Source: Daucus carota subsp. sativus (Eukaryota > Streptophyta > Magnoliopsida > Apiales > Apiaceae). Taken from it: DNA of 64,000 nucleotides. Positions 19,701-64,000 of the stretch are shown here, piece by piece. The number at the start of each line of letters is the position of its first letter. Position 1 is the first letter of the stretch. The stretch spans positions 46,560,689 through 46,624,688 of the forward strand of contig NC_030381.2 of assembly GCF_001625215.2 (NCBI RefSeq), written 5' to 3'. The translations under genes were made by a program, and so were the position numbers. The notes below the pieces were generated by a model that worked only from the letters and a program-made list of their open reading frames with translations, made no database searches and had not been told where the DNA came from.

Positions 19701-21917
19701 AGGAAGGTGAGACATCAATAAGTACAGGCGACTGAATGTTGCTGCTCCCAGCCGCTTCATGACCAAACAATTCATCAGATAGTGAATCGTTTAGGGCAAT
19801 TCCACGAGAAGCAACCCTGGAGCTGTGAACCAGAAAGTTTAAATATAATTCTAAATGTAAACCAAGACAAGTCGAATTACTTTTACAGTTTTACTGGTTA
19901 CGCGCAAACAAACCTGAATCTTTCGGCAATATAAGGCACTGCTGACTGATAGATGATGAAAAGTGCACGCCTGGCTGGTGTTGGAGAAAGCCCAAAAGGC
20001 CCTGCAACCTTGAAGTACAAATACTGTATTAGTCAGGAAAATACAACTTTCCTACTCAAAGTGCCGTAAGACATGAGGACATTTACACCATTTTATATAT
20101 ACCCACTTCATCAAGATGGACAAGATAAGAGTCAAAATATATTGCATATGAGATAATAGACATATAATTAATAATACATATGCAAGTTATATAGGCAATT
20201 TTAAACACAATTAGTGTCAAAGCACTGACATGTCTAGACATGTTGGTAACATAACCAGCTTTTAGCAAATTTCAAGCAGATTTACGTTATAATTTTTACA
20301 AAGTAACAGATCTATGGCCGCATTTTAAACATATCACTAGCACTGGTAATTCAATATGATCAAACAAGATATATTTTAAAAAAGCTTCCATAAAAATTAC
20401 TAGGACATGTCAGGAACTATATCAACAAAGACTTAAGGTCTATTTCTAACTGTCATCCCAAATAACAAGTACAGAACAGATTATGGTTCCAAGCACGCAT
20501 AAAATAACACGTTGATAGAAGTTGAAAACCTGAGTTATGTCACAGTACTCCTCTCCTAGTGTTTGTTGTCCTGCACCTGTTGTTAAGACATAATAAAGCA
20601 TCTGTCCTAATAGTTTTGTCTGGAAAAAAGCAAATAAAAAAAGGTTACAAATTCAACAGCTTATAACCACATAAAGACTTAATATAAATACATAGGGTTT
20701 GTCTAGTGTATGGCTGTATGCCCATGGGCACATGCTAAGCGCGGAATTTTATATGTTTGGGAGATTTTGATTGGTGTGGTGGTTGTATATGCAGGGGGGT
20801 CCACCATTATTAAGATATGAGAGCCAATAAGAATGAGTCAAACTTATAAAATTCCACGCTTAGCATGTACCCATGGGCACACACTAGAAAAACCGAAATA
20901 CATATTATACAAATATGAAACTTCCTCCTTATGCTTTTAAAGAATGCTTTTAACTTAAATTTCAGTCGGATGGTGCAAAATAAATGGAATTTCTGGTAAA
21001 CAAATTCAGCCTCGAACAGATGAATTATAAAAATATATAAGATTTACAAATTTACATATGAGAAAAATGTTCCTGAGATTACCTCAGGTAAGTATCCTTG
21101 CCTGAGGTAATCAAATAAAATGATAGTGTATTGTCATGTATATTCGTAAAGATGGAAACCAATCACACAATATATCAAAGTATATCGTGAATGGTGAGGT
21201 AATCTCACGAAAGTCATTCTCATCACATACAACTTTTATATAAAGCACAGGGCACGCCATGTACACAAATTAAAGAATTATAACAACACTCAAATGGAAC
21301 TCGTTTTTAGCAAACTACTTAGTAGAATACTCCTATTAAACGAAAGGCTCAACTATATGCATCACCGACTAGTGAAAACTAAAAACATAGTAAATTTTCC
21401 AAAGATAACAAATACGAAGTTATAGTTACGATGCAGATTTCAATTACTGAATAAGTTATACATTGTACAACTCACAAACTTTCAAACTAAAAGTCGATAA
21501 AAATTCAAAAAAAAAAAAAAACGATATCAAAGACACAAATTGATTGAAATTGGGAAGGCAGTTCCGCAACCGAACCTCATTTTGATAAGCAACAGCAATT
21601 CTTGTACCTGTAACCAACAACAAACGCATATAATCCCAAAGATAAGAAAAAATAATTAATAAGAAGAGGATAGAATAGAAAGCAGCCCTAAGCAAAGTAA
21701 TAATAAGAAATTGAACAAGTAAAAGACCTAGTAATTGGCGTAACGCATCGCGACAAGCTTCGTAAACGAAAGAGGCGTACTGATCGTCTTTCTCCGCCGC
21801 TCTCATGACCTCCGGTTGTGCAGCCAACGGGAATCGCCGTACACTGCCAGTAGACACGGCGGTGTTGCTAGTTCCGGCCTCATCGGAATTCGGAGAGTCT
21901 CTCACTACAGTTTCCAT
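16791..21917 (-). CDS. PEX10: Peroxin 10, peroxisomal RING E3 ligase
   Basis: Eleven exons on the minus strand: 21917-21728, 21607-21576, 20619-20530, 20008-19914, 19822-19621, 18968-18899, 18812-18734, 18544-18408, 17559-17465, 17079-16991, 16893-16791, giving 393 aa (Arabidopsis 381). Conserved blocks in order: [89 protein letters not shown], then a complete C-terminal C3HC4 RING (C339, C342, C354, H356, C359, C362, C373, C376) ending [12 protein letters not shown]10 works with PEX2 and PEX12 in the peroxisomal membrane to ubiquitinate the PEX5 import receptor for recycling. The ATG at 21917 is the first in frame. Intron 2 carries a 201-bp MITE (20695-20895). Divergent from ndhU; convergent with the MSL10-like gene. 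Confidence 0.95.
20695..20895. repeat. MULE-type MITE with CCATGGG palindromes, inside PEX10 intron 2
   Basis: 201 bp with inverted ends GGGTTTGTCTAGTGT and ACACTAGAAAAACCG. Subterminal CCCATGGGCACA palindromic blocks lie at both ends and a central GCAGGGGGGTCCACC core. A perfect 9-bp duplication, AAATACATA, flanks it (20686-20694, 20896-20904). Same family as 28776-28967 and 44684-44875. Confidence 0.88.
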
Positions 21918-25732: not shown

Positions 25733-27205
25733 TTCTCTCTTCCCAGATGGAAACACAAACTAAATGCATGTGCACCATTAATCCTTTTAAAGGGCCTCAA
25801 GATTGAAAATTCAACTCGATAAAATAATGATTCATAATTGACAATTGGCTAGTTGGCTTTTAAGTCTAAATTTAAGTCTAATTGTGATCTAACAAGCAAC
25901 CTTTTTTTCTTTATTAAAGGCCAACTTGAACTTGTTCAGTAGTATCATCTATATTTTATTCACTGCTTGTACAATAATTTGTGTATTGACCAGATTGCAT
26001 TTCTATGATCAAAGGATGCTAGTAATATTTATTATTTTCTTGTGAAGGGCATGCTACAATATTTTATTCACAATGTGCCAATAACTTTCGCCAATCATGT
26101 ACACACCGTACAAAAGATATTACAAGATAAAATAATAATAATAATAATGAAATATTTATTAATAACAGTATATCAGCTTTTGGCTTTTATCTTGAGAGCA
26201 GTCCTAGATGTGTCTAAATAATTACCAAACAATATAACACGTTCTAGTTAAAGAAATGAATATGAATACAGGAAATTCATTATATTTATAAAGCGTAAAT
26301 AATAACAATTTTGATAAATTATTTTAAAAAAGACTTGATATTTTTCCGAAATATCTAGTATTTCTCTTCTGATCATCGTCAATCAGCCATGACTCCTTAA
26401 AGCAGAACTACGTGTAACATTCTCAGCAGGAATTTATAGGTGATGTAATCAGATTATCAAAACTTAAAAGTTTAACATTTTTCAGGATTTTAATTTATTT
26501 TAAAAACATCTAATCAATAATTTACGATGATCCCAAATCAATTCTCTTGACAATTTTATGAATGTGATATTTGTGTAAAGAAAGTCAAAAAGAGAATATT
26601 CTGCCAATATTAACCTCACTTGATCCGAGAATATTCAGCCAAATTATGGCCAAACTAAGTTATTCATGGCCAGCTGCAAAGCCATCATTATTTACTCTTT
26701 CTTCGCAGTCGTAGGTAACCGCTACATTGTAAATTAGCGATAAAAAACAACTGCTACTTCGTTTTTATCTCAATCAAAGCCCAACTCGCACACGCCGCCT
26801 CATTATCATTCGATGCATCACGTATAATTTATGCGTTTGTTTTGCGCCTTGTTTATCAGAGTAATTTATCGTATTCTGGAGAAAATTGGAGCATAAATAT
26901 TGGTAAATGTCACGTTACTTGTGGTAACAAACAAAGTCGTGATAAACAGTAGCTCAATATTTATCAGTAGGGTATAGAAAAAATGTTTGACGCTTATGCA
27001 TAGTATTTTTACACTACCATTTTGTGGTCCTTGTGCTCTCTCACAATTCCTTTAATTATAACATAGAAAATTTTTCAACAATTCAAATAAGTATATATTT
27101 TAACACTTCTTGTTTGAAAAGTTAAAAAATAGAACAAAAATTAAGATAATTTTTATGTCACGGCAAATACAAAAATACTAAAACTGCAACTAAATTGCAA
27201 GTATT
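25733..27205. other. Upstream region of the MYB gene, no other gene seen
   Basis: AT-rich promoter-side DNA of the minus-strand MYB gene. Contains an (ATA)n microsatellite at about 26132-26152. No coding region or clean transposon end recognised. Confidence 0.5.
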
Positions 27206-28168
27206 CTACCGTTCAAAAGTCGCACCAAGTCTTGAAAGTACAAGGCTGAATTGGAGCTGATTTAGTGCTCATTTTCTGCCAAGAAAAAGGAAGTAAGTTA
27301 CGTGTGTATCATCGCCAGGATCTCATCCAGTTCAACGGCCATGTGAGAAAATGTGTGATTTGAAAGAAGAATCATAGAGTACCATCAAGTATAAACCAAA
27401 AGTTTAAGTCGATCCGGCCCAATGAACCAACATAAAAGACCCGACTTATGTAACATAGTGTTACCCCCAGGCCCCAAGTCCTATCAACTGCTTTTAGGTT
27501 TAGGTGAGTATTTGTTGAAAAATAACGATCCCCAAGCCGTTTTTCAATATTTCAAATTTTCAGGAGATCATTATTTTATTAAAAAAAATTGAAAAGATGT
27601 GTGGTTAAAGATCTTGCAAAGGCACTTTTTTTTTTAAGATTATTATTTGTTAGAAGTTAATAACGATTTGAAGCCTTTATTTGTTTATAGAAAAAACTTG
27701 TCAAAGTTCATACAGAGGACTGTTAAATCCAGTATTGTCGTGATTAATCATATACAAAAAAAAAAAACAAAGTTATATAGTGATTCAATTTTCGACGAAG
27801 AAGTAGGCTATTTGAAACCTTTTTAGTAGACATGTAAACAAATTTTATTACCCACGTAAAGATGATCTTATTTCTCAAAAATCAAGTTCTGTCAAACGCT
27901 TTTAATAAGCTGAGATCGCTAACTTCTCTCTCACAACATATACGTCTTCTCCAAACACTTTATTAACTTATTTAATTCTCACTTTTAATCCATTTTTTTA
28001 TTTTAAGCAAGAAATTATTTTTTTTAAGTCTGGAAATCATATTTTTAAGTTTGCTCAAACAACTCTTATGTTGCAAAGACGATTTTATGCCAAAAACTTT
28101 TGAGCAAAATCGTTAATTTGATAATATTATAATAGAAAATTATGATATGTGAAATTAACTCGGAAAAT
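27206..28168. repeat. Tandem duplication, unit A (uninterrupted)
   Basis: A unit of about 960 bp starting CTATTCTACCGTTCAAAAGT and ending GTGAAATTAACTCGGAAAAT. It is repeated head to tail as unit B, including GATCCGGCCCAATG, ACATAAAAGACCCGACTTAT and CAGGCCCCAAGTCCTATCAA. Non-coding. The piece around 27890-27990 resembles, inverted, the MITE-like repeat at 41107-41332. Confidence 0.85.
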
Positions 28169-28775
28169 GGCAACTATTCTACCGTTCAAAAGTCGCACCA
28201 AGTCTTGAAAGTACAAGGCGAATTGGAGCTGATTTAAGTGCTCATTTCCTGCCAAGAAAAAGGAAGTAAGTTACGTGTGTATCATCGCCAGGATCTCATC
28301 CAGTTCAACGGCCATGTGAGAAAATGTGTGATTTGAAAGAAGAATCATATGATTAGGGATGAAAACGGGTCGGGTCTGGTCTGGTCTGGAAAATGAAGAT
28401 CCAGATCTGATTCGTCGGGTTTTTTCGGGTTTCGGTTCGGGTTCGGGTCTAATTCGGGTATTTAAAATATAAAATTAAATAAAAATTGAAAATTATATAT
28501 CTATAAAAAATGCGATGATTGATTTTTTTAAAATTTAGGAACATAAAAAGAGTTATACAAGTTTCGTATAATACAATAAACACGTGAAACATGTTAACTT
28601 AACTGTATACAATCATTCAACTTATCATTTATATTTTATATTTTTATTATATTTAGATTTTTAATGCACAATAATTGAGAAAAATATTGATGAAATGAAT
28701 ATAAATTCTGTATTGGGCATATAAAATTAAGTAAAATGTTAATATTTTGTACCTAACAATTCATAATATTTCAAT

Positions 28776-28967
28776 CGGTCTTTCTAATGTGTGCCCAAGG
28801 GCACACAAGAATCACCAACTTTCATGAAAATGGCTTGTTTTGATTGGTGGAATTGATGTGAATGCAGGGGGGCCATTTCATTTATTATCCATCCACCAAT
28901 CAAAAGCTAGTATTCTCATGAATGTTAGTGACTATTGTGTGCCCTTGGGCACACCATTAAAAATTCG
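28776..28967. repeat. MULE-type MITE (CCAAGGG variant), nested
   Basis: 192 bp. Starts CGGTCTTTCTAATGTGTGCC and ends GGCACACCATTAAAAATTCG. A perfect 9-bp duplication, TATTTCAAT, flanks it (28767-28775, 28968-28976). The internal GCAGGGGGGCCATTTC core matches the copies at 20695 and 44684; here the palindrome is CCCAAGGGC/GCCCTTGGG. Confidence 0.88.
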
Positions 28968-28983
28968 TATTTCAATACATATA

Positions 28984-29218
28984 CTCCCTCTGTCCCATTT
29001 TAACTGATGTTTGACTTTTTAACACATATATTGAGGTGTAAAATGACAATGTCTACGCTTAATAAAAAAATTCAATTCTTATATCAAATAAAAGTTTAGA
29101 TTCTAAACTTTTATTTGATATAAATTTTATAAAGAATAATTATATTTAAATGTGATTTTTTTAATATCTTAAAATACGTGTAAAAAAGTCAAAAGCAGTT
29201 AAAATGGGACGGAGGGAG
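28984..29218. repeat. Stowaway MITE, nested
   Basis: 235 bp with CTCCCTCTGTCCCATTTTAA at the left and the inverted TTAAAATGGGACGGAGGGAG at the right, flanked by TA (28982-28983, 29219-29220). This is the classical Stowaway (Tc1/mariner) structure. It sits 16 bp from the preceding MITE inside the hAT-like insertion. Confidence 0.9.
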
Positions 29219-30272
29219 TACTTCACATTAAACACATAATATACTGTGTGTGTGTATATATATATATAATATTTTGTATCGGGTTTTTATCTGGTTTCGA
29301 GTTCGGATCGGGTTTAAATCAGGTTTCGGGTTTCGGGTCGGGACTCGGTTCGGAACACCTGAGATCCAAATCCAGATCCAAATCCAGATCCAAATTCTTT
29401 CGGGTATAAAAATAGGATCCAGATCCAGATCCAAACAAATCGGGTTCAGATAGATCCAATCGGGTCGAAACGGGTCAGGTAAAACTGTCATCTCTGCGTA
29501 CCATTCATACCATAAGTATAAACCAAAAGATTGAGTCGATCCGGCCCAATGCATCAACATAAAAGACCCGACTTATATAACATAGTGTCACCCCCCAGGC
29601 CCCAAGTCCTATCAACTGTTTTAGGTTTAGGTGAGTATTTGTTGAAAAATAACGATCCCCGAGCCGTTTTTCAATATTTCAAATTTTCAGGAGGTCATTA
29701 TTTTGTATAAAAAATTTGAAAAAATGTGCGGTTTGCAAAGGCTCTTTTTATTAGATTATTATTTGTTAGAAATTAATAATGATTTGAAGCCTTTATTTGT
29801 TTATAGAAAAAACTTGTCAAAGTTCATATAGAGGACTGTTAAATCCAGTATTATCATAATTAATCATATACTCATAAAAATACAAAGTTATACTGTGATT
29901 CAATTTTCGACGAAGAAGTAGGCTATTTGAAACCTTTTTAGTAGACATGTAAACAAATTTTGTCATCCACGTAAAGATAATCTTATTTCTCAAAAATCAA
30001 GTCCCGTCAAGGGCTAACTTTTTTCTCACATTCACAACATATACATCTTTTTCAAACATTTTATTAACTTATTTACTTCTCATTTTTAATCAATTTTTTT
30101 ACTTTAGGCGAACAATCACTTTTTTAAAATTTGGAAATCATATTTTTTAAGTTTGCTCAAACAACGCTTATGTTGCAAAGATGATTTTATGCCAAAAACT
30201 TTTGAGCAAAACTGTTAATTTGATAATATTAAAATAGAAAATTATGATAATGTGAAATTAACTCGGAAAATG

Positions 30273-44172: not shown

Positions 44173-46955
44173 GAATCAATATATACCAACCCACCCACCA
44201 AACCAAATCAAACCCTCAAAATTATTCCTCAATCAAAGCAAACAAAAACAAGAAAATCTTTTTTTTTTTTTTTTATGATATGGGTCTATCACAAGACACA
44301 ATCTTTGACAAAAAAGATGGGATCTTTGCAAGCATAACAGAGAGCATTCAAAGGAAACATCTTTGTTAATTTTCTTGTTGCTTCAAGTGATTATTATATG
44401 ATGAAAAATGTAGAATTTTATAGCAGGTTATTTATGTGAAATAATAAATAAAGAAAAAGGAGTTACAAATTTACAGTACAAGGACAAATTTAATATTTAA
44501 TGTAATGAAACTAAAACGGTGGGGCTTATCCACTTTCCATCCTTATCCAGGTTTGAGTTGATACATAAAAGCTGGCAAAAGTGAAAATAGATATACAATA
44601 CATGTCATCATATCTCTATCTCCCATCAAGATTTTCTATTTTTGCCCTGATATTGAGTGGGAAGCAAGAAATATTTTTATCTTGGGTCTTTCTGGTGTGT
44701 GCCCATGGGCACACATTAAGCACTAAATTTGATAAATTTGGTGGATTTTGATTGGTGGACTTGATGTATATGCAGGGGGCCATCCTTATTTATGATTAGA
44801 TGACCAATAAAAATGCACCAAACTCATAGGAGTTAGTGCTTATTGTGTGCCCATGGGCACACCATAGAAAAACCGTTTTATCTTATATATTGATTCGAGT
44901 TTTTAGGAATTTATAGCAGTTTTTTTTATTCGATGTCATCTGGTTAACAAAAAATAAAATTATGCGGGATAAAATTATTTAGATTTAATATTTTATGTTA
45001 ATAATCATTATTTAATATAAAGTTTATATCATTTTTCAGAACTGTGTTATTTTTATATGTGCAGTACAATGCCACACTAGAAATGATCCGAGTTTTCTAG
45101 ATATTGTTGTTTTATTTTAGATGAGTGAATTGAATTTTGTAGTACGATATAATTATCGATTTAAAATGTATTCTATCGATAAGATAAGAAAGGATAATGA
45201 TAGAGGCAAGTTCATAAATCAACCGTTAAAGTTACAGGCATATCTTTAATTGATGTTTAAACAGGTAATTTTTGGTACAAATATTACAATTAAGCACATA
45301 ATTTATTTTGTTGAGTCACCTATCCTGTGTCATTATCTTCCGAGGATATGGATGAAAAAAATTTCACTAAAAAAAGAAGAAAAAAAATGCAATCTCAAGT
45401 TAAATTTTATATTTATCCTGATCTAAGTATGGTGTAATCTCGTGTTCCCCCAACCTTTACCAAGATCTTATCTTTCCCTTGAAAACAATTTTATGATACG
45501 GCCAGAGGTTTGGTTTTTTTAATATTTTTTGACACGTTCTTGTATATTTTGATTATAAAATAAAATATATATTAGAGTAAACGGGGATTATATACATTCT
45601 GTAAACTGAACACGTTCACAAAACGAGGATCATGTATATTCTGCCACAAACTCAACATGGTCTGCTCCAAACTGAACATGTTCTGCATGACTAGGCCTAG
45701 GCGCCATGTCTGATTTTTCGGTTAAAGTCCGATATCGGCTATGAATATGAGACAACCAGCTTAGAGTTTTGAAAAATTATTGAGCTCAGTTACGTACCTA
45801 CGTCCTCAAGCCAATCCGAACTAAATGAATTTTTCTGAAATTCGATGCGAATTTTTTTAAAATTATTTTTTATCAACAAAAAATGGTCATAATTGGATAT
45901 ATATGATCAAATGAGGTCAAATTTAACTAAACTCGACTACCTATTAACTATTAAAAATTATCTTTAAAAAAACTATTAAATTAATCGAATTTAACATATT
46001 TTTGATTGAAATTATAATCGATTGAATTTAGTCCAAATTTTTGCAAATTTCAAAATTTTAACAGAATGATAGGAGTATTAAGATAGTAGATAATAGTATA
46101 ATACACCATAGAGTAAGTATCAAGTGATACTTTATTTATGATACTAACTCTGTCATGGTAGATAATACGTCATAGAGCAAGTATCAAGTGATACTCCATT
46201 ATTTATGATACTAGCCTTGTTAGAAAAATCGGTGATTAATCACCGATTAATTCCTGTTATGTAACTTGCCGAACTCATTAAATCTCTGATTAATCATCGA
46301 TCAATCCGAATAATTCCCGATTAATTCTTGTTCCGTGAGTTCACCAATTAAGTTCGATTTCCGCTTTTTACAACATTACATACTAGTAACTAGATTGATA
46401 ATAGAGTATTTGAACATATGACGTGGATATGACATTTCATTAGTACGAAAGAGGAGTAGTATTTAGACAGCTTGTGAAAATGTGTATTTTGGACAAATTA
46501 ACACCCTCAACGGATATTTTGGACATTTTTTCTAATCATAAATTGCATATTACGGAAATAATTGTACAGAATAATAATAATAATAAATAATAAATTTATT
46601 GTAAAATGAAAATTGTGTTGGAGTTTACAAGGCGCAATCATTGGTTATAGGTTGATTGGTTACCGACCTACTGAATAGATACAATGTAAATCGGTGCATG
46701 GTTAAAGATGAAGCTCTCTGATACAGAGTTTTCATGTGTTTTAAGCCAGGGGCGATAGAGTTGACTAAGAAGATTACTCTGAACTTAACATGTAAACAAA
46801 GTACCAATTACAATAACTCATGATACACACTTATGATACAGTTCTCAGCCTAACAGCAAAATATGCATGCTAATCATTATGTTCTTGTTGCTTCTTGACA
46901 CGGGCCTTGATCATGATTAACACACCATTGAACACTAGCTCTATTAGAGTGTGCT
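44173..46955. other. Intergenic region between the OXS3-like and GH9 genes
   Basis: Promoter side of the OXS3-like gene (a long T run at 44259-44274), then one MITE (44684-44875). A short direct repeat of AAGTATCAAGTGATACT with TTATTTATGATACTA lies at about 46110-46210, and the repeat copy described with 41430-41560 is also here. No gene seen. The GH9 3' UTR should end here. Confidence 0.5.
44684..44875. repeat. MULE-type MITE with CCATGGG palindromes
   Basis: 192 bp, the same length as the copy at 28776. Starts GGGTCTTTCTGGTGTGTGCC and ends GGCACACCATAGAAAAACCG. A 9-bp duplication, TTTTATCTT, flanks it (44675-44683, 44876-44884). The GTGCCCATGGGCAC palindrome is present in both arms, with a central GCAGGGGGCCATCC. 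Lies about 510 bp upstream of the OXS3-like start. Confidence 0.9.
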
Positions 46956-50088
<3,133 letters not shown>

Positions 50089-53000
50089 TTAGCACCTCCT
50101 CATCATACTTGCTACATTTCTCCCTATTTCTTCTTTTGTTTGTTCGCAGGCAGGAACATCTCCGATGTACATATCAAAGAAAGCCCCTAACAGTGTGGAA
50201 CCTCATGTTAACATTTACACATATTTCATTAAAGTGTATATTTATACACAAACCTATATACTTCTTATTTTTAAACTAATTCTAAATCAGGATATATCAA
50301 TTTACTGCCCATATCTAAATAATAAAGAATTAAATGCAAACATAAATAAAGAAAAGAGAAATTATTATAAGTAGATCACTCACTGCACAAATCCTTGCTT
50401 TGTACTGCTCCAATTTGATAGCCTTCAACTGAAAAAAATATATCACTGTTAAGTTCTGACAAATGTTGATAAAGAACACTTGATCCTAGTCAATAAATGC
50501 AAATACTATATGAATAGGCCATAACTGGCATGTTATCTAGAAAAAAGTAGAAAGCTGCAACTGATTAGGTTTATTAATAATACATTTGGGTTTTTAGGTC
50601 TATGAAATTCAGGTAGAAGCAAGTATCGATATACATAGATTGAGAGCTGAACCATCAAATCTTACTCTCTGTAATCAAATATCCATCTGCTGTTCTCTTG
50701 AAAAGGATAGTTGTTCCCTGGACATTTTAATGTAACATCAGCCCTTTTGCCAAATAAAAGTATGTACTCGTGATTAAGTACAAAAAGGCTAATAATCGAA
50801 TTATGTACCGCACGTATAGGAATATCTTCAGCAAATAGAGAACCAAATTTTCTCACACAGTCAAAATCACTGGCTGGGTTTGTCTAAAATACAAAGAAAA
50901 AAATTGTCAGGAGTCGTAGATAATGATCCTTCAAGCATATAAATAGATTCCAGAAGCAGATAGTTTACCTTCATCAATCGAGCTCGAAGAGATTTCTCAA
51001 AAGCACTGCAAGAAACATAAGAAATAAATATAACAAATGGGTAATGGAATTCTTCTGAATTGTACCATCCAACTAAAGTAATGCCAACAAATTTTTAGAT
51101 CGGTAATCAAACAAAGAGAACAAGTTACGACTGGAACTAGTCTGCCAGATGATGGCATCACACACCCTTATAAGTTCACACTCCAATTATAATGTTCTAA
51201 GTTTAACTTCTACAGGTAACATCTTGTAATCTTGTTTGATGTTCACCAAAATTTTACAGAAAAGCTAGACATGACAACTCATAGTTGGCAATAAACAAAA
51301 AAGTCATGGAGCAGATGCATTGGATATCGACTGGTTTATAATATAATAAAAACTAGCTCAATCCACCCATGCGGATGAATTGCAGTATTGGTTACATCAC
51401 TCATGAGAGAATGCAAGGCATCATTGAGCATAATGGTTTTGTGACACCTGACATTAGACTCACGGACCATCAACCATGATGGGATGGAATAGTTTTTTTG
51501 ACTTGTCTAGTAAATAGCATAAGAAAGCAAGCTGATTAGTTTCAGTCATAAATATTTTCTTCACATATGCTTTCAAGTCTTAAACATTGTCACTTCTCAA
51601 ATAAAACTTTCGTAAAGGAATTTAAACATACCTTCTAACTGTACTAATTTTAATCCCATTGACGCTAACCACGAGTTTAATCGTCATGCTAATGTCCTCC
51701 CTGAGGCATCCATGCCATAATTGATTCAGGAAACAATAACATAGAATCATGTAAAACACTTAATATGACAAAGGCAATCAAGCCCTCTTCCAAAGGTTTA
51801 TCTATGCTCAGCAATAGTTCACAATAAACAATGAGTGCGCTCAATTTTAAACCTAAAAATAATGGAAAACTGGCGTCATCAAACTACATGGAGACTCAAT
51901 CTGATTTTGCCTTTAACAACTTGTACAAATTTCCTTGTGCCAGGATCTCAAGTAGGCATGTATAATCTTTGAATTCTCAGGTAAATACACCAACTTGTCC
52001 ACCACCACAAAAGAAATTTATTATCGTTGTATCATCTTTGATGGTTAAAATTGACACACTACAAAGACGCTAACAAAAGAAATTCTTTTAATCATGGCCA
52101 ATTTTTAAGGATGTCCAATGTATATGTATGATTCCAAAAGAAATACTAAAATATAACTGCCCCTATGCAGATGTTTTCTTCTTAACCTACGTAATAAAAA
52201 TAAGCAACTTGATAATCACCTTCCTTCTCTGTCTTTAGTCTATTGCAAAGTTAGCAGGCATAATGAATGAAGAAATAACCAAAATGAAATGTAAAGAAGA
52301 CGGCATATCCCACAGAAAAAAATTTTGAGTGATGAAGATATCAAATTAAAAACCTGAGAAGATCCTGATAAAAGGAACGATGTTTATGTAGTTCACTTGC
52401 TGGAATAGAGCAATATTTCCGGCCCAACTTCTCACAAACATCAAAAGGATGTATATCTATTCAACATTCAACGGTCATTAATGAGTAGGGAAAAGGTCTC
52501 CACAATTATATTGAAGAATTACTTGAAATCTATTTACTTACAGAAACCAAATGCATAAAGCTTCAGAGACTTAATTTTTATTATTTTCATTGTTCTGGAT
52601 CCAGTTCCAACAAGCACCTTCAGTGAAAATTAATGATAAATGAAGACATTAACATGTTAGAGAATAAGAAGCTGCCAAATCATAGAAGGCGAAAAACAGT
52701 ATCTTTGCACAAAGAGTCATCATTAAACACTTAAAAGCGGAAAAAATAGCAGCATACTCGATACACAGCATCAAGACACATAATAAGACTATTCACAGGT
52801 GGGAGAAATTCATGAAGGAAAAAAGAAACTACTGATGATCAGTTATGACTTATGAACAAAAAAGGAATTATTTATTAAAAAAAATTCAATCCCCCACAAC
52901 ATGTGAACAAGTTTCAGATGAATTAGTAATAACTAAATATGTATTCTGGCAAGCTGATAATTTAATCTCCTGAACAGGTAAGTAAACCCCAATATATTAT

Positions 53001-54203
53001 GTCAAGTGCCGTCACTGTTACCAATTTATATTATAAAGTAGAAGAAAACTAGAAGACAAGCTTTCCTTCCGTATTGATTTTCAATCTAGTTGAGAACAAA
53101 AAAGCCTTGAATTCTAGTTGCAAATAAAATCTGAAATATATAAATATCAACAGGAAAGGCTGGGATCTATATTCGACGTTAAACTGGATCATGAAGATGG
53201 ATCTAAAACATGTATTGGTTATGGTTAGTGAAGGTTATAAAATCAAACTGAACATTGAAAAATTCAGTATGAAAATAAAATTAACAAGAGAAGCTACAAA
53301 TTAAAGTATCAACCTCTGAAAGCCAATTGGAGTTGGTCTCTCCATCTGAAGTGTTTTCCAATATAGCTGGGAACTCAATGCCAGTAACGGGCTCAACTGC
53401 GTGTCTTGTGTTTAAAGTAGATAAACAGAGATCACATCCACGGTGCTCAAAATCACAGGGACCTTGTTCAACGCATTTCTGCATCAGCACATCATCATTC
53501 TCATGGGGGACACATACCACATTTTGGGATCTGTTATTAACATTATAATAGATTATGTCTCAGGTAATGCTAATACTGCAGCAGAAAGAAAGGAAAACAC
53601 ATTTCTGACAACCCTCAAACAGATTGATCTATTGGTGAGCAACCTTTATCAATAGTATATGATAGTCATTTCACAAGTTCCCCCGGGGAAACCAAGAAGA
53701 AGAAAATTAACTTACTCATTGTTGAATGGCGGTATCAAAGCTGCAGCTAATGAGATCATAGGAAAAGTTTGAAGCTGTTCGGCATGTTTGTGCAGTTGTC
53801 TCACACTGAAATTCGAAATCTTTTCGAAAATCAAGGGTATGCAAGATTCACCCTGTAATCTAAAACTGTGACCAAAACCAGAAAGACTATGGCCAGTAAA
53901 GCGGTTTACTTGCGTACAAGGTCTACATCTTCCTCTGTTCGATACACCATGGTCACCAGGTAGATTAAAATTTATACTAGACCTCGATCCACTGGCAAAC
54001 CATAACAACACTGCGCCAGTAAACTTTGACATACAATTAAAAGCATCCTGTAGAGCCAAACTTCCGGAAACACAAAAGTATCTTGAATTGTCGACAAATG
54101 AACTAATACTGGTAAATAGATTGGGGTTTACAAGGGGTTCCACCGGAAACATATAAGAAGACCAAACATCATGATCCCGGGGAAACAACCAATTATTCCG
54201 CAT
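50089..54203 (-). CDS. Fatty-acid-binding protein 2-like (chalcone isomerase fold)
   Basis: Ten coding exons on the minus strand: 54203-53716, 53530-53314, 52617-52542, 52456-52354, 51700-51632, 51005-50969, 50883-50809, 50717-50666, 50428-50384, 50186-50089, giving 419 aa. It begins MRNNWLFPRDHDVWSSYMF; the first about 235 residues are specific to the FAP2 branch. The CHI fold follows: VLVGTGSRTMKIIKIKSLKL, YAFGFYIHPFDVCEKLG, VSVNGIKISTVRSAFEKSL, DFDCVRKFGSLFAEDIPIRA, GTTILFKRTADGYLI, and the C-terminal AFFDMYIGDVPACEQTKEEI. Members bind fatty acids rather than isomerise chalcones; FAP2 in Arabidopsis is predicted plastidial. It is distinct from bona fide CHI by this long N-terminal extension. 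The ATG at 54203 is the first true ATG in frame. The last coding exons are very small (37-98 nt) but all phases agree. Confidence 0.88.
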
Positions 54204-55038
54204 ATCGATCAAAACGATTCAATCCTACAATCACAAGTTTTCATCATTCCCTCAGCATCAAAAATAAGACATTTAAACTGAAAAAAGAAATGACTACAAA
54301 CATGACAAATCAATCAATCAAATAAATTTCTGTCAACAACATTAGAATAGCACCCATTTAAAAGAAAAGAAAGGCAAAATCAAGAATGTAATACCAACAT
54401 AAAAGCTAAAATCATCACAGAATCAAGAATTAGCTTAAACCCACAAAAAGGTTAAAACTTTATGCACATATGTGTATGCATATAAATTACAGATCCATAT
54501 ATCTCATTATATGTTAGACAAACCCACAAAATCACATTTCTACCAAATGTTGATGTGAAACATACCCAAAAGATCACAAATTACATATACAGCTATCATT
54601 AAGCAAATTCATTGTATTTCATAAGAAAATTGAAGAAATGAAACAAACCTGAAAAAGGGTTGATGAGTAAATATAATATGAATCAAGAAATGTGTGAGCT
54701 TGGTGTTGGCAGAATTAAAAGTACAAGGTTGAGGGGGTTTGAACAAGTTTATGTCAGCGAAAATAAGGAATATGCGATTATACGTATTTCTCAGCTCAAC
54801 AAAACAAAACAAGGATACTCTGGAACCCAAGATTTTAAGATTTTCGCTTTCAACACACACAAAACATGTAGTACTACTGTATCTTTTACCGTGGGGTCCC
54901 GATTATTTTTGCTAGAATAAACTATACAAAAGCGAACCGACTTTCGATTCAATTACCTCTCTAAAATTATCGTTATAGTTCAATTACCTGTCTAATTCGT
55001 ATATAACCTTTGAAATATAGAATTCTCTAGTGAACTTT
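54204..55038 (-). promoter_or_regulatory. Probable 5' UTR intron and promoter side of the FAP2-like gene
   Basis: On the minus strand a donor-like CCTTTTTCAG|GTTTGTTTC at about 54650 and an acceptor-like GATTGTAG|GATTGAATCG at about 54229 suggest a 5' UTR intron of about 420 bp. Upstream promoter sequence would lie beyond about 54700. Supported only by splice-like sequence. Confidence 0.4.
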
Positions 55039-55040
55039 CA

Positions 55041-55073
<33 letters not shown>

Positions 55074-55075
55074 TA
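55039..55075. repeat. (ATA)n microsatellite
   Basis: About eleven ATA/ATT units followed by AT-rich DNA. 55076-55643 contains no recognised gene. Confidence 0.85.
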
Positions 55076-55643
55076 ATTGATGAGAAAAAAATTCATATTT
55101 ATATAATATTTTTATTATAATACGTAAATTTAATTCAATTTTGTATGTTTGGATTTTCTTTACACTTACATAATATTCTATATTATAACATACTCCTTGT
55201 CCCCTATGGTTTGTCTCCGTAAACATAGACTTGACCCGGAGTTTAAAACTCTTATAAATGTAGTTAATATTTTAAATTTCTTTTATAAACAAAATTTAAT
55301 TAAAAATTAATAAAAATTTATATTTATATGAATACATGCGTCATAAAATACTTGTCAAGTAACAGAAAAATCCCGTAAAAAAAGAGAGACAAGGAGAGAG
55401 GTAATATTTAATTCATTTTCTTATATTTTCCTTCTTGGGATATTACTTTATTAAATTTACGTAAAAAGTCATATATATGACGTTATAAGTTTGAAAAAAA
55501 AGTGTGGCCGTGATTCATAAAATTTGTTTCTTTTCTTCTATGCCCTGTTTCTTGTTCCACATTCATTTGCGTTTGGTCTTCTGTGCATGACAACACCTTG
55601 GTTTCTCTCGCTGGGTAGGTCCGTGTTCTACTACAACACTAAA

Positions 55644-57814
55644 CTAGCATAAAAGCCCGTGCGAGGCACGGGACTCTAGTTTTTTTGTGTTTTAAATAAT
55701 ATTCGTGTGTCATCATATTATTTCGAGCATAACTATTACGTCTTATTTTTTAACAGAATATGTAAATATGAAATGTAACATTTGCAATCTAATAGCATTA
55801 ATAGTAATAATATGTATTGTATTTAAAAAAAATTATGGATAAAAACAACATTTGAATTGATTTTTCTATAATCAAAGTCGTTAGGATATAGAGGCCATTA
55901 TCATATTATCTACATGTTCAAAATTATATTCGAAATTAATACTGAAACTTTTAGAATTTAAATATAATATACCTCATTAAAAAGATCTGTAATTTATTAC
56001 TGAAATTTATTAAATTATACCATCAAATATGAAAACTTGTTCTTGATATGTGAATTACGATATCCTCAATCATGATTAGATGAAGATGTGTGGTCCGCGT
56101 TGTTTTATATTTATTTCTCTTTTTTAGCATACGTTTGTGTAACAGTTAAGTGATATATGATGGACAGACCATCTACACATTCTTTTTTATTATATGTTGC
56201 ACACACTTTGTATAAATAATAATTGAAACATATGTAAAAGACCTACCTTACTTTATTATAAAAGCATTAATTGAACTACTAACCTTATAATTGTACCCGA
56301 AAAATTCTGACACGTTTGATGTGGCTTACCCTTTTAATTTTCCAATTATATAATACTTCAATGCCTTATATATTTTTTTTCTTAATTTAAAATATTAGAT
56401 GATTATTACTTTGATACCGCGTGTTATAATATTGTGTTGTTATAAAATATTAATTTTTATCATTAGTTTTCTGAGCTTGTTGACTAAGACTTTTAATATT
56501 TTTCATGTAATCTTTATAAACCAGATCTCAAATAGCAAAAATAGAGTAGATGTTAGTTAGGCACCATGGAGTTCATAAAAATAAGAAATATTTAGTTTAA
56601 TTAGTCGTATAGTTACTTTTTTAGCTTTGTGCAAACTCACATTTTTAAATATTTTGATACTCTTATTTCTTAGGGGTGAGCAATGTAGCATATCATGTTC
56701 AATTGTTAAAGATCAAATCAGGTGTTCGATATTCTGGATTATGGAAAACTATTCTTGTTCAATTCCCGTCTAATCAGATATTAGTTTTCATCTTATCGCG
56801 TCGGATTATCCATTCCAGAATTAATTATATTTTATTAGTTTAATTTGTAAATGAATAATTAATTTAATTATATTTTGAATCATTTTATTTAACTCGTATG
56901 TTATACATTGATGTATGGCATATTAAAATTATAGTTTTAATACTTTAATATATATATAACTTATTTCTCTGTGTTATTTTATTTTAAGCGAATAAAATTT
57001 ATAACTCAATAACACCAAATTTGATGTCTTTGTCACTATTCTTATATCTATAAAAAAAATTTTTGAAAAGATTTGGTTACACGTCGAATTCTGAATTCAT
57101 AAGTTTAAAATAAAAAATATTTTAAACAAAAATATTCTTTCAGTTATCTTATTTCATTTTCTTAAAAATAATGTAATCTCTTTATAAGTCACCTTTTGTA
57201 ATTAAATAAAAAATATGACATAGTCCATGTTGAAAGTTCATCAATTTTACCTTTCAAAGATTCTCACCGAAATCTTAGTTTTTGTGCTTATTTCTCACAT
57301 TCATGGCTTAAATTTCTCTAATATTGTATCGGTACTCGTTTAAAGTATTAAGTTAGATTTGAATTCGTCCAATTTTATTCAAATATGAATTATATCCATT
57401 TTTTGAAGTCTGAAACATGGCTCGAGCCCAATTGTTCAAATTCTTTTTCAAATTTAAATTTATTACGTAAGTAATTAATTTATGGATATTAATCTATCAT
57501 GTAAAAAACATATGAGGTTTACCTAAAATAATAACTTATCTCAAATAGATAAGATATTGAAAAAAAAATATAAATACAACAGTTTTAATGTATGAGTTTA
57601 ATGCTTTTGAATAAAAAAATTAATTGCATGTGTAGCTCAAGTGGTTTCAATGGTGTAATTGTAATCAAGAGGACTTGGGTTCGAGTCCCAATAATAACGT
57701 TTTTTTATATGTATGAGGAGGAGTTAGGTTCGGAGTTAGGCTCAGCTTCGGAGCTAGGTAATTTATTTGCTCAGGAGGGAGGCTTGACACGAACGTGTTG
57801 GGCTACTATATATA
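55644..57814 (-). mobile_element. Helitron-like unit 1 (non-autonomous), 3' end at the left
   Basis: On the minus strand the unit ends in hairpin CCCGTGC-CTC-GCACGGG (55656-55672), then CTTTTATG and CTAG (55647-55644), followed by host T: the Helitron 3' signature (hairpin about 8 nt before CTRR, insertion between A and T). No target duplication is expected. The body is AT-rich with no Rep/helicase. The right (5') end is GTGTTGGGCTACTATATATA and abuts unit 2. A tRNA-like segment lies near its 5' end. It holds the empty site (56220-56229) of the MITE found in unit 3, and lacks about 150 bp present in unit 3 (60046-60199). Confidence 0.68.
57633..57688 (+). other. tRNA-like segment with Pol III A and B boxes (SINE head?), unit 1
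   Basis: Box A-like TAGCTCAAGTGG at 57633-57644 and box B-like GGTTCGAGTCC at 57678-57688 stand 33 bp apart, followed by a T run at about 57699 that could terminate Pol III. It does not fold into a full cloverleaf, so it is a tRNA-derived relic or SINE head rather than a working tRNA gene. Confidence 0.5.
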
Positions 57815-58091
57815 CTAGCATAAAAGCCCGTGCGAGGCACGGGACTCTAGTTTTTGTTGTGTTTTAAATAATATTCGTGTGTCATCATATTATTTCGAGC
57901 ATAACTATTACGTCTTTTTTTTTGAACAGAATATGTAAATATGAAATGTAACATTTGCAATCTAATAGCATTGATATATAGTAATAATATGTACTATATT
58001 TATAAAAAATTATGGATCAAAAACAACATTTGAACTGATTTTTCTATATTCTAATTCGTTAGGATACGAACGTGTTGGGCTACTATATATA
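57815..58091 (-). mobile_element. Helitron-like unit 2, 277-bp internal-deletion derivative
   Basis: Begins with the identical CTAG plus hairpin end, runs about 250 bp nearly identical to the start of unit 3, then jumps from TTCGTTAGGATA straight to CGAACGTGTTGGGCTACT, the 5' end of the unit. Both termini are retained and almost 2 kb of interior lost. Confidence 0.75.
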
Positions 58092-58686
58092 CTAGCATAA
58101 AAGCCCGTGCGAGGCACGGGACTCTAGTTTTTGTTGTGTTTTAAATAATATTCGTGTGTCATCATATTATTTCGAGCATAACTATTACGTCTTTTTTTTT
58201 GAACAGAATATGTAAATATGAAATGTAACATTTGCAATCTAATAGCATTGATATATAGTAATAATATGTACTATATTTATAAAAAATTATGGATCAAAAA
58301 CAACATTTGAACTGATTTTTCTATATTCTAATTCGTTAGGATATAGAAGCCACTACCATATTATCTACATGTTCAAAATTATATTCGAAATTAATCCTGA
58401 AACTTTTAGAATTTAAATATATTATACCTCATTAAAAAGATTTGTAATTTATTGTTAAAAATTATTAAATTATTTCATCCAATATGAAAACTTGTTCTTG
58501 ATATGTGAATTACGATATCCTAAATCATGATTAGATGAAGATGTGTTGTCCGCGTTGTTTTATATTTATTTCTCTTTTTTTTAGCGTACATTTGTGTAAT
58601 AGTTAAGTGATATATGATAGACAGACCATCAACACATTCTTTTATATCATATGTTGCACACACCTTGTATAAATAATAATTGAAAC

Positions 58687-59238
58687 GGGTTAATTATCAA
58701 ATTGGTCACTAAAGTGGGCTCAATGTATCAAGTTGGTCACTAAACTCAAAACGGTATCAAGATGGTCACTGAAGTGGCCATAAATATCAAACAAGTACCT
58801 TGAAATATGAGTTCAAGCACTAAAAATATTATTTATAAAGTTTTACACATCATTTTTCAGTGTTACCACAAACAAGTAAAAGTTTATGACTTCTAATATT
58901 TATGACAAAAAATTTAGATTTTATCAAGTTTATTTATTATTTATTTTTATTATATAGTTATTTCTTTGTTTTAATTAAAAATAAATAATAAATAAACTTG
59001 ATAAAATCTAAATTTTTTGTCATAAATATTAGAAGTCATAATCTTTTACTTGTTTGTGGTAACATTTAAAAATGATGTGTAAAACTTTATAAATAATATT
59101 TTTAGTGCTTGAACTCATATTTCAAGGTACTTGTTTGATATTTATGGCCACTTCAGTGACCATCTTGATACCGTTTTGAGTTCAGTGACCAACTTGATAC
59201 ATTAAGCCCACTTCAGTGACCAATTTGATAATTAACCC
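58687..59238. mobile_element. 552-bp MULE-type long-TIR MITE
   Basis: Starts GGGTTAATTATCAAATTGG and ends CCAATTTGATAATTAACCC; the arms stay inverted for about 250 bp each around an AT-rich centre. A perfect 10-bp duplication, TAATTGAAAC, flanks it (58677-58686, 59239-59248), and the unoccupied target with one copy survives at 56220-56229 in unit 1. The diverged relative is at 349-832. Confidence 0.9.
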
Positions 59239-60813
59239 TAATTGAAACATACTATATTGTATGTAAAAGACCCTACCTTACTTTATTATAAAAGCATCAA
59301 TTGAACTACTAACCTTATAATTGTACCCGAAAAATTTCGGCACGTTTGATGTAGCTTACCCTTTTAATTTTCATATCAATTATATAGTACTTCAATGTCT
59401 TATATATTTTTTTGTTAATTTAAAATATTAGATGATTATTACTTTGATACCGCGTGTTATAATATTGTCTTGTTATAAAATATTAATTTTTTATCATTAG
59501 TTTTCTGAGCTTGTTGATTAAGATTTTTAATGATTTTTCATGTAATTGTTATAAACCAGATCTCAAATAGCAAAAATAGAGTAGATATCAGTTACGCACC
59601 ATGAAGTTCATAAAAATAAGAAATTTTTAGTTTAATTAGTCGTATAGTTACTTTTTAGTTTTGTGCAAACTCACATTTTTAAATATTTTGATACTCTTAT
59701 TTCTTAGGGGTGAATAATGTAGTATATCATGTTCAGTTGTTAAAGATCAAATCAGGTGTTCGATATTCTGGATTATGAAAAACTATTCTTGTTCTATTCC
59801 CGTTTAATCAAATATTAGTTTTCACCTTATCGCGTCGGATTATCCATTTCAGAATTAATTATATTTTATTAGTTTAATTTGTAAATGATTAATTAATTTA
59901 ATTATAGTTTGAATCATTTTATTTAACTCGTATGTTATACATTGATGGATGACATATTAAAATTATAATTTTAAGACTTTAATATATATATATAACTTAT
60001 TTCTCTGTGTTATTTTATTTTAAGCAAGTAAAATTTATAACTCAATTCTTTTTAGTAGGTCTCGTGAACACGTTTTATTATTATTTGGTTGACTTTTGAT
60101 TAACAACATAGAATTTCCCTAAATTCACCTTTGTATCACAAGTTATAATATTTCAAATTCATATATCACCAAAATCACATCATTTAGACATATTTTCTAA
60201 CACCAAATTTGATGTCTTTGTCACTATTCTTATATCTATAAAAAAAATTCAGAAAGATTTGGTTACACGTCGAATTCTGAATTCATAAGTTTAAAATAAA
60301 ATGTAATCTAAATAAAAATATTTTTTCAGTTATCTTATTTCATGTTCTTCAAAATTTGTAATCTCTTTATAAGTCGCCTTTTATAATTAAAAAAAAAATA
60401 TGACATAGTCCATGTTGAAAGTCCATCAATTTTTCCTTTCAAAGACGCTCACCGAAATCTTAGTTTTTGTGCTTATTTCTCACATTCATGAATTAAATTT
60501 CTCTATATTGTATCGGTACTCGTTTAAAGTATTAAGTTAGATTTGAATTCGTCCAATTTTATTCAAATATGAATTATATCCATTTTTTGAAGTCTGAAAC
60601 ATGGCTCGAGCCCAATTGTTCAAATTCTTTCTCAAATTTAAATTTATTACATAAGTAATTAATTTATGGATATTAATCTATCATGTAAAAAACATATGAG
60701 ACTCACCTGAAATAATAACTTAACTCAAATAAATAAATATCGAAAAGAATATAAATACAACAGTTTTAATGTATGAGTTTAATGCTTTTGAATAAAAAGA
60801 TTAATTGCCTGTG

Positions 60814-60869
60814 TAGCTCAAGTGGTTTGAGTGGTGTAATTGTAATGAAGAGAGCTTGGGTTCGAGTCC
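60814..60869 (+). other. tRNA-like segment with Pol III A and B boxes, unit 3
   Basis: The same structure as 57633-57688: TAGCTCAAGTGG (60814-60825) and GGTTCGAGTCC (60859-60869) followed by a T run. The two copies differ by a few bases between the boxes, while the boxes themselves are identical. Confidence 0.5.
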
Positions 60870-61013
60870 CATGAATAACATTTTTTTTATATGTATGAGG
60901 AGGAGTTAGGTTCGGAGTTAGACTCGAGTTCGGAGCTAGGTAATTTATTTGCTCAGGAGGGAGGCTTGACACGAACGTGTTGGGCTATTATATATATAAT
61001 AAGTAGATAAGTA

Positions 61014-61842
61014 GATAAGTAGAAGTAGAAGTAGTCGGAGAAGGAATTACCAAGTCGGTCGTTGCACGGTTGTTGCGTTATATTTGTAATTTTTGATATC
61101 TGTATGATATATTTTCCGTTTTAAAGAAACAACTAAACGATTTGAATATATAAATTTGTTTCCATCTGATTTGTTTTTTTCTGAACAACCGATCATATAT
61201 GCGATTTCATAATAACTTTTAAATCTGAATCAAACTCATAAAAATCATGCCGATTTAATAACTTCGATCATGGTAAACATCAAAATTCAAAACATATCAA
61301 AACAAAACAAACTAACTCTCACAAGAAAGAGAGACTAACAAAACCCAAATAAATTAGAAATTTATTGAATGAAAAATAAAATTTCAAAATAAAAAAAATA
61401 TTAAGGCTTTCCACCTGGTATCATCTTTCCTTCTCTTTTCACTAAAAAGTAGGGGTGATCACCAAACCGCAAAAACCGCCCGCACCGCACCGTGATATGT
61501 GGTTTTTAATTTTTGTGGTGCGGTTGCGGTTCGAAATTTTGTCAAACCGCAAGGTGCGGTGCGGGTTGCGGTTTTAATTTTATAAAATGCGGTTAAAACC
61601 ACACCGCACCGCATTTAATATATTATATAAAAAAATATTTATAAATATTATATTATATGCGTTAATATGCTATATTATAATTTTATTATGCATCCATCTA
61701 AGCAGTTTTATTTTTATATGAAGCCCATCAAATCTGGGCAGCGTTATAAAAACAGAAGTGTCCTACATATGCAGCAGGGAAGCAAGCACCAGTAGTCTGG
61801 TCTGTTCTTGTAAATTACTCGGTGTTTACAAATTTGTCAGAA
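61014..61842. other. Intergenic DNA with one hAT-like terminus
   Basis: 61452-61630 begins TAGGGGTGATCACCAAACCG and is packed with ACCGCACCGC and GTGCGGTTGCGG repeats in both orientations, the subterminal composition of many plant hAT elements. No matching opposite terminus was found, so this is probably a truncated element. No gene. Confidence 0.4.
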
Positions 61843-61871
61843 CTAGCTTTATAGCCCGTGCAAGGCACGGG
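61843..61871 (-). mobile_element. 3' terminus of another Helitron-like element
   Basis: On the minus strand: hairpin CCCGTGC-CTT-GCACGGG (61871-61855), CTATAAAG, then CTAG (61846-61843) followed by T. The same architecture as units 1-3, but with different sequence beyond the hairpin. The element must extend rightward from here; its 5' end was not found and may lie outside the window. Confidence 0.6.
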
Positions 61872-63134
61872 CAAGCTCTAAATTAATATATTATAAATAT
61901 TTATAATGGGTGGGAAAAGTTGGAGTGCTAGAAAGGTCGTAAATAATAAACACCCATGATGAATGTAGAATTTGAAAAGGTCTTGTAAGTATGAATCAAA
62001 AGAGGTCATGGAGTGTCATTCAAAAAGAACGGTATTTTTGTTACTTGATAAAGATCTTAAAACGATAAACAAAAAATAAATAGATACTTCAAAATAGAAT
62101 TTCCAGGATTTACGAGGAATGAGTTGTAGAGATATAAATTACACATGTGCCAATATTTGTATCTCAAAATCAAGTTGGTTAGGTTAGAACAAAGGAAGCC
62201 AAAGTAGATTTAGAAACATGAAGTACGAACACCAACAATATTGCTGCTCCACAGTCTCGCATTAAAATTAAGTGCCAACAAAGCAAGTGAGGAGGGAAAA
62301 CTCAAGCTTCAGAATATATCAAACCAAATACCCACAATGCATCTAAATTATGGGAAAAGATCATGGGACAAAGGGTAAGATGTAAACATCCCTACCTCTA
62401 ACTCTAAAAGGGTAGCACAGTTGTATGTGTAGAGACCACGGTGACTTGAATAAAACAAAATCTGTTAAATAGCACCAAATAGTAAAAACAGTAGCAGCAT
62501 ATAGAATAACTGAACAACTGCGATTATCAACTCAGCTAGAGCTAAGAAGTCCAGAAGTCACTTGTATCAATTGGAAGAGATAAACACCTGACTCCTGAGC
62601 ATATGGATTAACAAAAGATCACTGTTGACTACTGAACTCTCCATACTCCTCAGATGTAGGACTGGGGAGTTACAAACTTGCCCACTTAAATTCCTAACAT
62701 CCCCATGTCAAATCCCGAGTCACAGTCCTCGATATGGGACTGAAGTGTTACATATACTTCTCATCTACTGAATGTACTCTCAAAGATGTTGGAAATCAGT
62801 TAAATAACAACATTGTTCTGACTTCACTTTAGGTGGCGACACGAAATCCATGAATGAACTGAAAATTGAAGTAGCCTCAACTGACAAACTAAAATAAGCT
62901 TAAACATAGAAATTCTTTTCAAAATCCAGCCACCATTTACAGCGGACCTCGATGTCTGTTATAAAACAGCTTGATCATTAATATTTTCTCATAACTCATA
63001 TGTAAACACGTGGTATAATAATGTCAACAGAGCTTTTAAGGTATATTAACAAAGTTGGTCCAGGAGTCTCGGTGCTAACAACACAGCAATTATTCAAGGG
63101 CTAATATGCACAGGACAGGCAACCGAGTTGATCA
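61872..63134. other. Possible Helitron interior, no intact gene
   Basis: No convincing coding region. 62330-62460 read on the minus strand (GGTAGGGATGTTTACATCTT then ACCC) recalls the tail region of tRNA-derived plant SINEs, but this is too degenerate to call. 62640-62760 contains two similar GGACT-centred pieces (GTAGGACTGGGGAGTTACA, ATGGGACTGAAGTGTTACA). Confidence 0.35.
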
Positions 63135-63520
63135 AGTTATATCCAGCTTGTTGTTGAAAGCAAAAATTACTGCTCCAGCATGTTCAGTTGCATTCCTGAC
63201 AATTGGCAATAGAATGATGATGATGAAGCTTACAGATAATCCCCAGGAGGCTGATGCTTCCTGTAAAATTCTTATATCACTCAAATTTATACCAATAGAA
63301 TAGAAAAATTATATGATTTCATTAGATTAATCAAATTCTATTCAGATAATAATGAAGGGAATAAGTAGGCACAATGTTTAATTACCTCAGTAGTGCCAAC
63401 AACATACTCAGATAACACTGATATAACAACAGTCATAACAGCCAGCCAGATAAATCCACTCCAGAATCCTGTAACAGGTGTTTCATCTGAAACTAAATCA
63501 TCTTCTTCTTCATAGACAGC
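63135..63520 (-). pseudogene. Fragment of a CAX-type vacuolar Ca2+/H+ exchanger gene
   Basis: Two exon-like blocks on the minus strand. About 63520-63386 encodes EEEDDLVSDETPVTGFWSGF then IWLAVMTVVISVLSEYVVGT, ending at donor GAG|GTAATT. 63260-63135 after acceptor TTTTACAG encodes [12 protein letters not shown], then [19 protein letters not shown] and NNKLDIT. This is the CAX1/CAX3 region before and around the first conserved repeat. The usual IVGNAAEHAG reads [10 protein letters not shown], and an in-frame stop follows KLDIT where the family continues LGVALGSATQ. The retained intron (63261-63385) shows DNA-level origin, not retroposition. No upstream or downstream CAX exons were seen, so it is a truncated, probably non-functional fragment. 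Confidence 0.8.
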
Positions 63521-63670
63521 ATGACAAAAAAGAAATTCCAAAAACCATCTTAACTATATATATTAAATTCAAATAACACGAGTTGCATCTTCTTCTCCAC
63601 ACATAAAAGTAAAGAAAAATGTACCTATTGGGCTTCAAAAACTTCGTGATGAGTCCACAACTGGGAAAAA

Positions 63671-63780
63671 AGGCCCTGGCTGCATGCAACATCACCAATT
63701 AGAACCTCAGTATCATAGAAAGCCACAAAAGGAGTAATCCTACTACCATGATCATTGGCAAATATTTCGACGTGGTTACC
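63671..63780 (-). pseudogene. HSP70 N-terminal fragment, copy 1
   Basis: The minus strand reads GNHVEIFANDHGSRITPFVA then [16 protein letters not shown], matching the start of the HSP70/BiP nucleotide-binding domain (family: [20 protein letters not shown], then AFTDTERLIGDAAKNQ). Only about 36 residues are present, with no start codon and no following HSP70 sequence. It lies upstream of and in the same orientation as the CAX fragment. Confidence 0.78.
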
Positions 63781-63845
63781 TTACCAAACTCAATACATGA
63801 ATACATGGTTCCCAGATCAATTCAAATTGCAGGTCCTCATTTTCC

Positions 63846-63950
63846 AGCCATAACATCACCAATTAGAACCTCAGTATCATAGAAAGCCACAGAATAAGGA
63901 GTAACCCTCCTACCATGATCATTGGCAATGATTTCGACATGGTTACCTTG
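63846..63950 (-). pseudogene. HSP70 N-terminal fragment, copy 2
   Basis: The minus strand reads [20 protein letters not shown] then [15 protein letters not shown] and a stop. It is a tandem duplicate of 63671-63780; the flanking GCAGGTCCTCATTTTCC also recurs (about 63830 and 63977), giving a duplicated unit of about 150-170 bp. More of the unit may continue past the window end. Confidence 0.75.
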
Positions 63951-64000
63951 CTAAACTCCAATACATGAGCAATTGCAGGTCCTCATTTTCCGGCCATTCC

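Follow-up and report, generated by a model that had tools for sequence, protein, structure and literature searches.

Introduction

Why do pieces of an HSP70 gene and of a cation exchanger (CAX) gene lie side by side, a short distance upstream of what looks like the 3′ end of a Helitron? The question arises at the right-hand end of the stretch of DNA analysed here (the window, 64 kb, 33% G+C). From the sequence we consider it reasonably probable that what we see here is the 3′ part of a decayed, non-autonomous, minus-strand Helitron that carries both pieces. Several points should be addressed in assessing this explanation. Is the terminus genuine? What are the gene pieces, and in what state are they? 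Could they have been joined by another route?

The window has 23 stop-to-stop ORFs of at least 110 amino acids. Ten were scanned and five gave a Pfam family at E≤0.001; these are a Myb domain, two protein kinase pieces and two GH9 glycosidase pieces, representing three intron-split eukaryotic genes. No tRNA or tmRNA was found in the window and no Rfam family in 50000-64000 at the gathering threshold.

The Helitron-type 3′ end

The first-pass annotation placed a Helitron-type 3′ end at 61843, and the scans described below bear this out. It consists of two features.

61842..61846, minus strand: Helitron-type 3′ terminus, CTAG (61846-61843) with the host-side T (61842), from pattern and structural scans
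61854..61872, minus strand: subterminal hairpin with 8-bp arms GCCCGTGC/GCACGGGC and a 3-nt loop, 7 nt from CTAG

Minus-strand sequence 61872-61842 reads GCCCGTGC-CTT-GCACGGGC-TATAAAG-CTAG/T, and the host-side sequence starting at 61842 is TTCTGACAAATTTG. Helitron 3′ ends are recognised by CTRR followed by T, here CTAG/T at 61843, and by a palindrome, here the hairpin placed 11 nt from the terminus with CTAG counted. Plant Helitron ends, as described in PMC2702305 and PMC3288121, have a 16-20 bp hairpin lying 8-12 or 10-12 bp from the end and an A/T target; the size and spacing of the hairpin at 61843 and its CTAG/T agree with these descriptions.

A strict structural scan, requiring perfect 7-bp arms with at least five G/C, a loop of 2-5, a gap of 5-12 and CTRR then T, recovered four sites across the 64 kb, each of them on the minus strand (55644, 57815, 58092 and 61843), and none in 100 dinucleotide shuffles. 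The family pattern of hairpin plus CTAGT with up to three mismatches picked the identical four, again all on the minus strand (as 55643, 57814, 58091 and 61842), and none in 100 shuffles. Since a single tandem array accounts for three of these sites, the four are worth about two independent occurrences; a 17-nt hairpin core pattern likewise occurs, besides 61843, at three further places in the window, all within one array. The four 3′ ends are alike over approximately the last 30 nt. Farther upstream the body of the 61843 element no longer aligns clearly with the elements of the array, so that its extent lacks a confirming relative.

A looser first scan gave 14 rows, namely the four strict sites, an alternative reading of 61843 (61837), four plus-strand readings of the same hairpins and five others. 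The plus-strand reading of the palindromic hairpin (61881) was rejected, having a gap of 3 and CTAA then A where the minus-strand reading has normal spacing and the T. Between 61843 and 64000 the strict scan found no second Helitron end. The exact 61843 3′ end had no match in viral contigs, and a relaxed hairpin-CTAG pattern had three bacterial matches in prokaryote genome contigs, which are taken as chance. Judged by its motifs, the site at 61843 is clearly identifiable as a genuine Helitron 3′ end on the minus strand.

The HSP70 and CAX pieces

The gene pieces are given in the order in which they would be read on the minus strand. Exon borders are placed from protein alignments.

63852..63997, minus strand: copy a of the HSP70 5′ coding piece, from ATG to GATGTT; it contains stops and, against copy b, a gap of 22 nt
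63688..63851, minus strand: copy b of the HSP70 5′ coding piece, likewise from ATG to GATGTT; its first half is frameshifted
63625..63687, minus strand: CAX exon piece 1 (LFSQLWTHHEVFEAQ), with an in-frame TAG at its end, abutting HSP70 copy b in frame
63508..63624, minus strand: CAX intron, GT..AG, 117, 120 or 123 nt depending on the acceptor, borders inferred
63386..63507, minus strand: CAX exon piece 2 (to EYVVGTTE), acceptor possibly 3 or 6 nt further in
63261..63385, minus strand: CAX intron, GT..AG, 125 nt
63132..63260, minus strand: CAX exon piece 3 (EASASW...KLDIT), similarity stopping near 63132-63135

HSP70 is represented by the first ~54 codons of a cytosolic-type protein in two tandem copies (63997-63688), arranged head to tail with copy a at 63997-63852 (146 nt) and copy b at 63851-63688 (164 nt). 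The unmodified reading of 63950-63852 matches HSC70/HSP70 chains with E 1.1e-6, the best chain being aligned over its residues 24-53. A second unmodified reading matches HSP70/HSC70 chains with E 1e-6, the best alignment extending into the CAX part. Pfam places copy b just below the gathering score for HSP70 (E 0.00038, 19.2 bits against 20.6), and the NCBIfam DnaK models match the two copies weakly (best E 0.0011 and 0.016).

Over 142 aligned positions the copies show 11 differences, 8 of them transitions (Jukes-Cantor 0.082), and the alignment is broken by gaps of 22, 3 and 1 nt. At a neutral rate of approximately 0.7-1.3e-8 per site per year, their split would fall roughly 3-6 million years ago. 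A TGA at codon 5 is common to both. Only copy a has a TAG right before QGNHVEII, where solved HSP70 subjects carry W or F, and only copy b has a 1-nt gap. Since the TGA is shared and the further lesions are private to each copy, the piece probably stopped coding first and was then duplicated in tandem.

For CAX, residues 254-369 of the solved vacuolar cation/proton exchanger 1 (9vsa) were used as a tblastn query against the whole window. Three pieces were matched, 63663-63628 (67% identity), 63511-63386 (62%) and 63275-63135 (72%), with a joint E of 3.65e-27; no further CAX piece was found in the window with these residues, all other matches having E 1.5 or worse. Manual joining of the three gives 68 identities over 97 aligned residues (E 1e-36), and the NCBIfam model caca2 then matches at E 5.5e-34, under the full-length cut-off as expected for a fragment. 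Taken singly, the CAX ORFs score weakly in Pfam, one exon reaching E 0.024 and another having no match. Continuation of CAX past 63132 via a frameshift was considered and rejected; the alignment with 9vsa reaches residue 369 with almost no identity after LDI. Because it is cut inside the window on both sides, by HSP70 at 63688 upstream and by loss of similarity after ~63132 downstream, the CAX sequence is, on these alignments, a true internal fragment. The first-pass annotation had named a complete CAX gene just outside the window as one observation that would overturn capture, and this concern is largely removed.

At the junction, 63688/63687, the GATGTT of copy b runs directly and in frame into LFSQLWTHHEVFEAQ, then TAG and GTACAT. 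The CAX part therefore reaches the HSP70 junction at 63687/63688, which corrects the earlier description. That description was right to put both fragments on the minus strand, in sense with the element, but HSP70 is present as two tandem copies and not one; similarly, CAX does keep splice dinucleotides (GT..AG), in two introns where one had been described. The origin of the CAX piece at the DNA level, also proposed then, is sustained by the retained introns. Intron retention does not, however, single out a Helitron as the agent.

The HSP70-CAX pieces carry shared and private stops, one frameshift and an altered glycine, the GNAAEH motif of the solved CAX protein being RNATEH here. This decay argues against present protein function, although RNA could still be made, and in annotation neither HSP70 nor CAX should be called a working gene at this locus.

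Between the terminus and the gene pieces

61873..63131, minus strand: sequence of ~1.26 kb between the hairpin and the CAX piece, without a Pfam family or CAX match

In 61872-63131 no Pfam family was found at E≤1 in any of the six frames, and thus no third gene piece or Rep/helicase; one ORF of the 61873-63131 stretch gave a sub-threshold match to PF18445 (E 0.08). The best tblastn match for CAX in 61872-63131 has E 0.33. Absence of Rep/helicase from this stretch only argues for a non-autonomous element. AT skew was tried as a border signal and set aside; it is positive in all 250-bp steps of 61751-64000, yet 61251-61500 is equally skewed. Just to the left of the Helitron end, at 61471-61613, lies a repeat in which GGTGCGG/CCGCACC is frequent and whose 16-nt inverted arms are 94% complementary.

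How the pieces may have been joined

In the explanation that we favour, a Helitron would have picked up a piece of HSP70 and a piece of CAX as genomic DNA and carried both between its ends. Rolling-circle transposition with capture, either by read-through past an end or by repair-type filler DNA, may have joined them, and a 5′ TC end beyond 64000 would bound them. Helitrons begin with TC next to a host A and insert without duplicating the target site. Any transcript would run from HSP70 to CAX; its CAX introns could be spliced out, yet no long protein could be made from it. In support are the sense orientation of both pieces upstream of the 3′ end, the direct mid-gene HSP70-CAX junction and the GT..AG introns. 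Both pieces are on the correct side of the 61843 3′ end, and the window ends without a 5′ end. Flanking DNA is captured by bypass of the 3′ end in Helraiser, according to PMC4778049, and PMC3288121 argues for stepwise capture of several pieces in maize. If simple read-through had joined the pieces, a bypassed end should remain upstream of them; none is visible up to 64000, which speaks neither for nor against that mechanism.

Some observations count against capture. No 5′ end is recognised up to 64000, the ~1.26 kb between CAX and the hairpin is unassigned, and the body of the 61843 element has no clear counterpart in the array beyond the last ~30 nt. A candidate 5′ end, A/TC, falls exactly at the CAX break, 63132/63131. 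A short Helitron, for example 61843-63131 (~1.29 kb), could thus end at 61843 with the HSP70-CAX chimera a separate pseudogene just outside it, an alternative that we regard as rather unlikely. It suits the 61872-63131 stretch, where no Pfam family is seen, and in maize Helitrons can be 1-2 kb long or shorter; of the elements below 1 kb, 64.7% lack a gene piece (PMC3288121). A/TC is frequent, though: counting those with T, A or C as the next base, 32 are listed for the 2.1 kb of 61872-64000, 63132/63131 among them, and because there are so many these do not discriminate. The one at the break is also unlike the AT-rich start of the array elements. Were a short Helitron inserted in a CAX exon, CAX should resume to the left of 61843. 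In 60997-61842 it was not found: the three minus frames gave no Pfam family, phmmer returned no CAX chain for any of them (for one frame it gave an unrelated transporter, E 0.16), and the best tblastn match to CAX residues 254-369, where the query stops, has E 0.92. These tests are weak for short decayed exons, Pfam having missed one true CAX exon in this window.

That the pieces were joined within a Pack-MULE, a CACTA or other inverted-repeat element, or by filler-DNA break repair, with the Helitron end an independent neighbour, is in our view unlikely. Such elements also carry plant host gene pieces, as noted in PMC1947982 and PMC8903248, and the common orientation of both pieces would be expected about one time in four by chance alone. 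Against this, none of the five inverted-repeat pairs in 61000-64000 encloses both pieces, the widest being 61667-61689 with 63300-63322 (23 nt, 74% complementary); a right-hand repeat could lie past 64000. We consider it very improbable that the pieces stem from a segmental duplication or that the CAX part is the margin of a complete gene. Retained introns would fit the DNA-level copying of a duplication, but the CAX similarity is interrupted at both of its borders in the window, a blastn comparison of 61801-64000 with the whole window (E 1e-3) gives, besides the self match, only the two HSP70 copies and the hairpin ends, and tblastn reveals no other CAX piece there.

Capture by a Helitron therefore remains our preferred explanation, and carries a more speculative corollary. 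Since the HSP70 start codon of copy a lies three bases before the end of the window, a 5′ leader and heat-shock promoter could lie beyond 64000, and the Helitron could then spread a heat-inducible promoter driving an HSP70-CAX fusion transcript; we rate this as a long shot.

Comparison with known elements

Maize helA/helB and their relatives resemble the candidate in having a CTAG/T end with a subterminal hairpin and, on the capture reading, in combining unlinked gene pieces in one element (PMC3288121). That paper gives 82.1% of helA elements as carrying 1 to 5 gene pieces and counts 4,645 captured pieces; the review PMC13317346 quotes a figure of about 2,791 for the maize Helitrons that carry genes and are transcriptionally active. 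Unlike helA/helB, the candidate described here is known from its 3′ end alone and its pieces are much decayed. The GIGANTEA-fragment Helitrons of Lolium perenne, according to PMC2702305, also end in CTAG/T, with a 14-16 bp hairpin, and hold a piece that starts near the ATG of its gene and keeps introns. They differ in that both ends and several copies are described and one gene was captured, where two would be involved here.

Pack-MULE/Pack-TYPE and CACTA elements can likewise carry host exons as DNA. What marks them is a pair of terminal inverted repeats together with a target-site duplication, whereas no inverted-repeat pair surrounds both pieces in the visible 61000-64000.

Even if the interpretation is right, the capture is a further example of a well-known kind, one more case of a plant Helitron taking up and shuffling gene pieces, from which one could read that joining came first, then decay, then the tandem duplication of one piece. 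It matters mainly for correct annotation, captured pieces in maize numbering thousands. A literature search, made without the short name CAX, found no report of Helitron capture combining HSP70 with a cation exchanger.

The neighbouring array and other repeats

On the minus strand, 55644-60996 is a head-to-tail array of Helitron-like elements with two long units of ~2.2 and ~2.9 kb, their aligned blocks 92-94% alike, and a 277-bp short unit between them. The array holds two identical junctions of CTAG with TATATATAGTAGCCC, and the upstream unit starts beside a (CTACTTAT)n repeat. A six-frame Pfam search of 55600-60480 found no Rep/helicase, and one weak, unrelated receptor-domain match (E 0.044). 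Head-to-tail Helitrons are reported from maize and bat (PMC2267711).

Inserted in the upstream unit is a near-palindromic element of ~0.55 kb (58687-59238) with ends GGGTTAATTATCAAATTGGTCAC. It is flanked on both sides by TAATTGAAAC, giving a 9-10 bp target-site duplication, a length that we take to be that of Mutator-like MITEs. A relative occurs at 351-832, 86% alike in one direction and 83% in the other.

Other repeats are scattered over the window. A 398-bp unit is tandemly duplicated at 2442-3242 (93% alike); near it, at 3501-4781, is an ORF of 426 amino acids without a Pfam family at E≤0.001. Duplicated blocks occupy 27192-30272, where 27380-28169 pairs with 29508-30272 (88%) and 27192-27376 with 28165-28349 (97%). 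A short repeat has three copies, at 20715-20895, 28765-28971 and 44670-44879, which are 74-75% alike in the two pairs listed; each copy is largely self-complementary and MITE-like.
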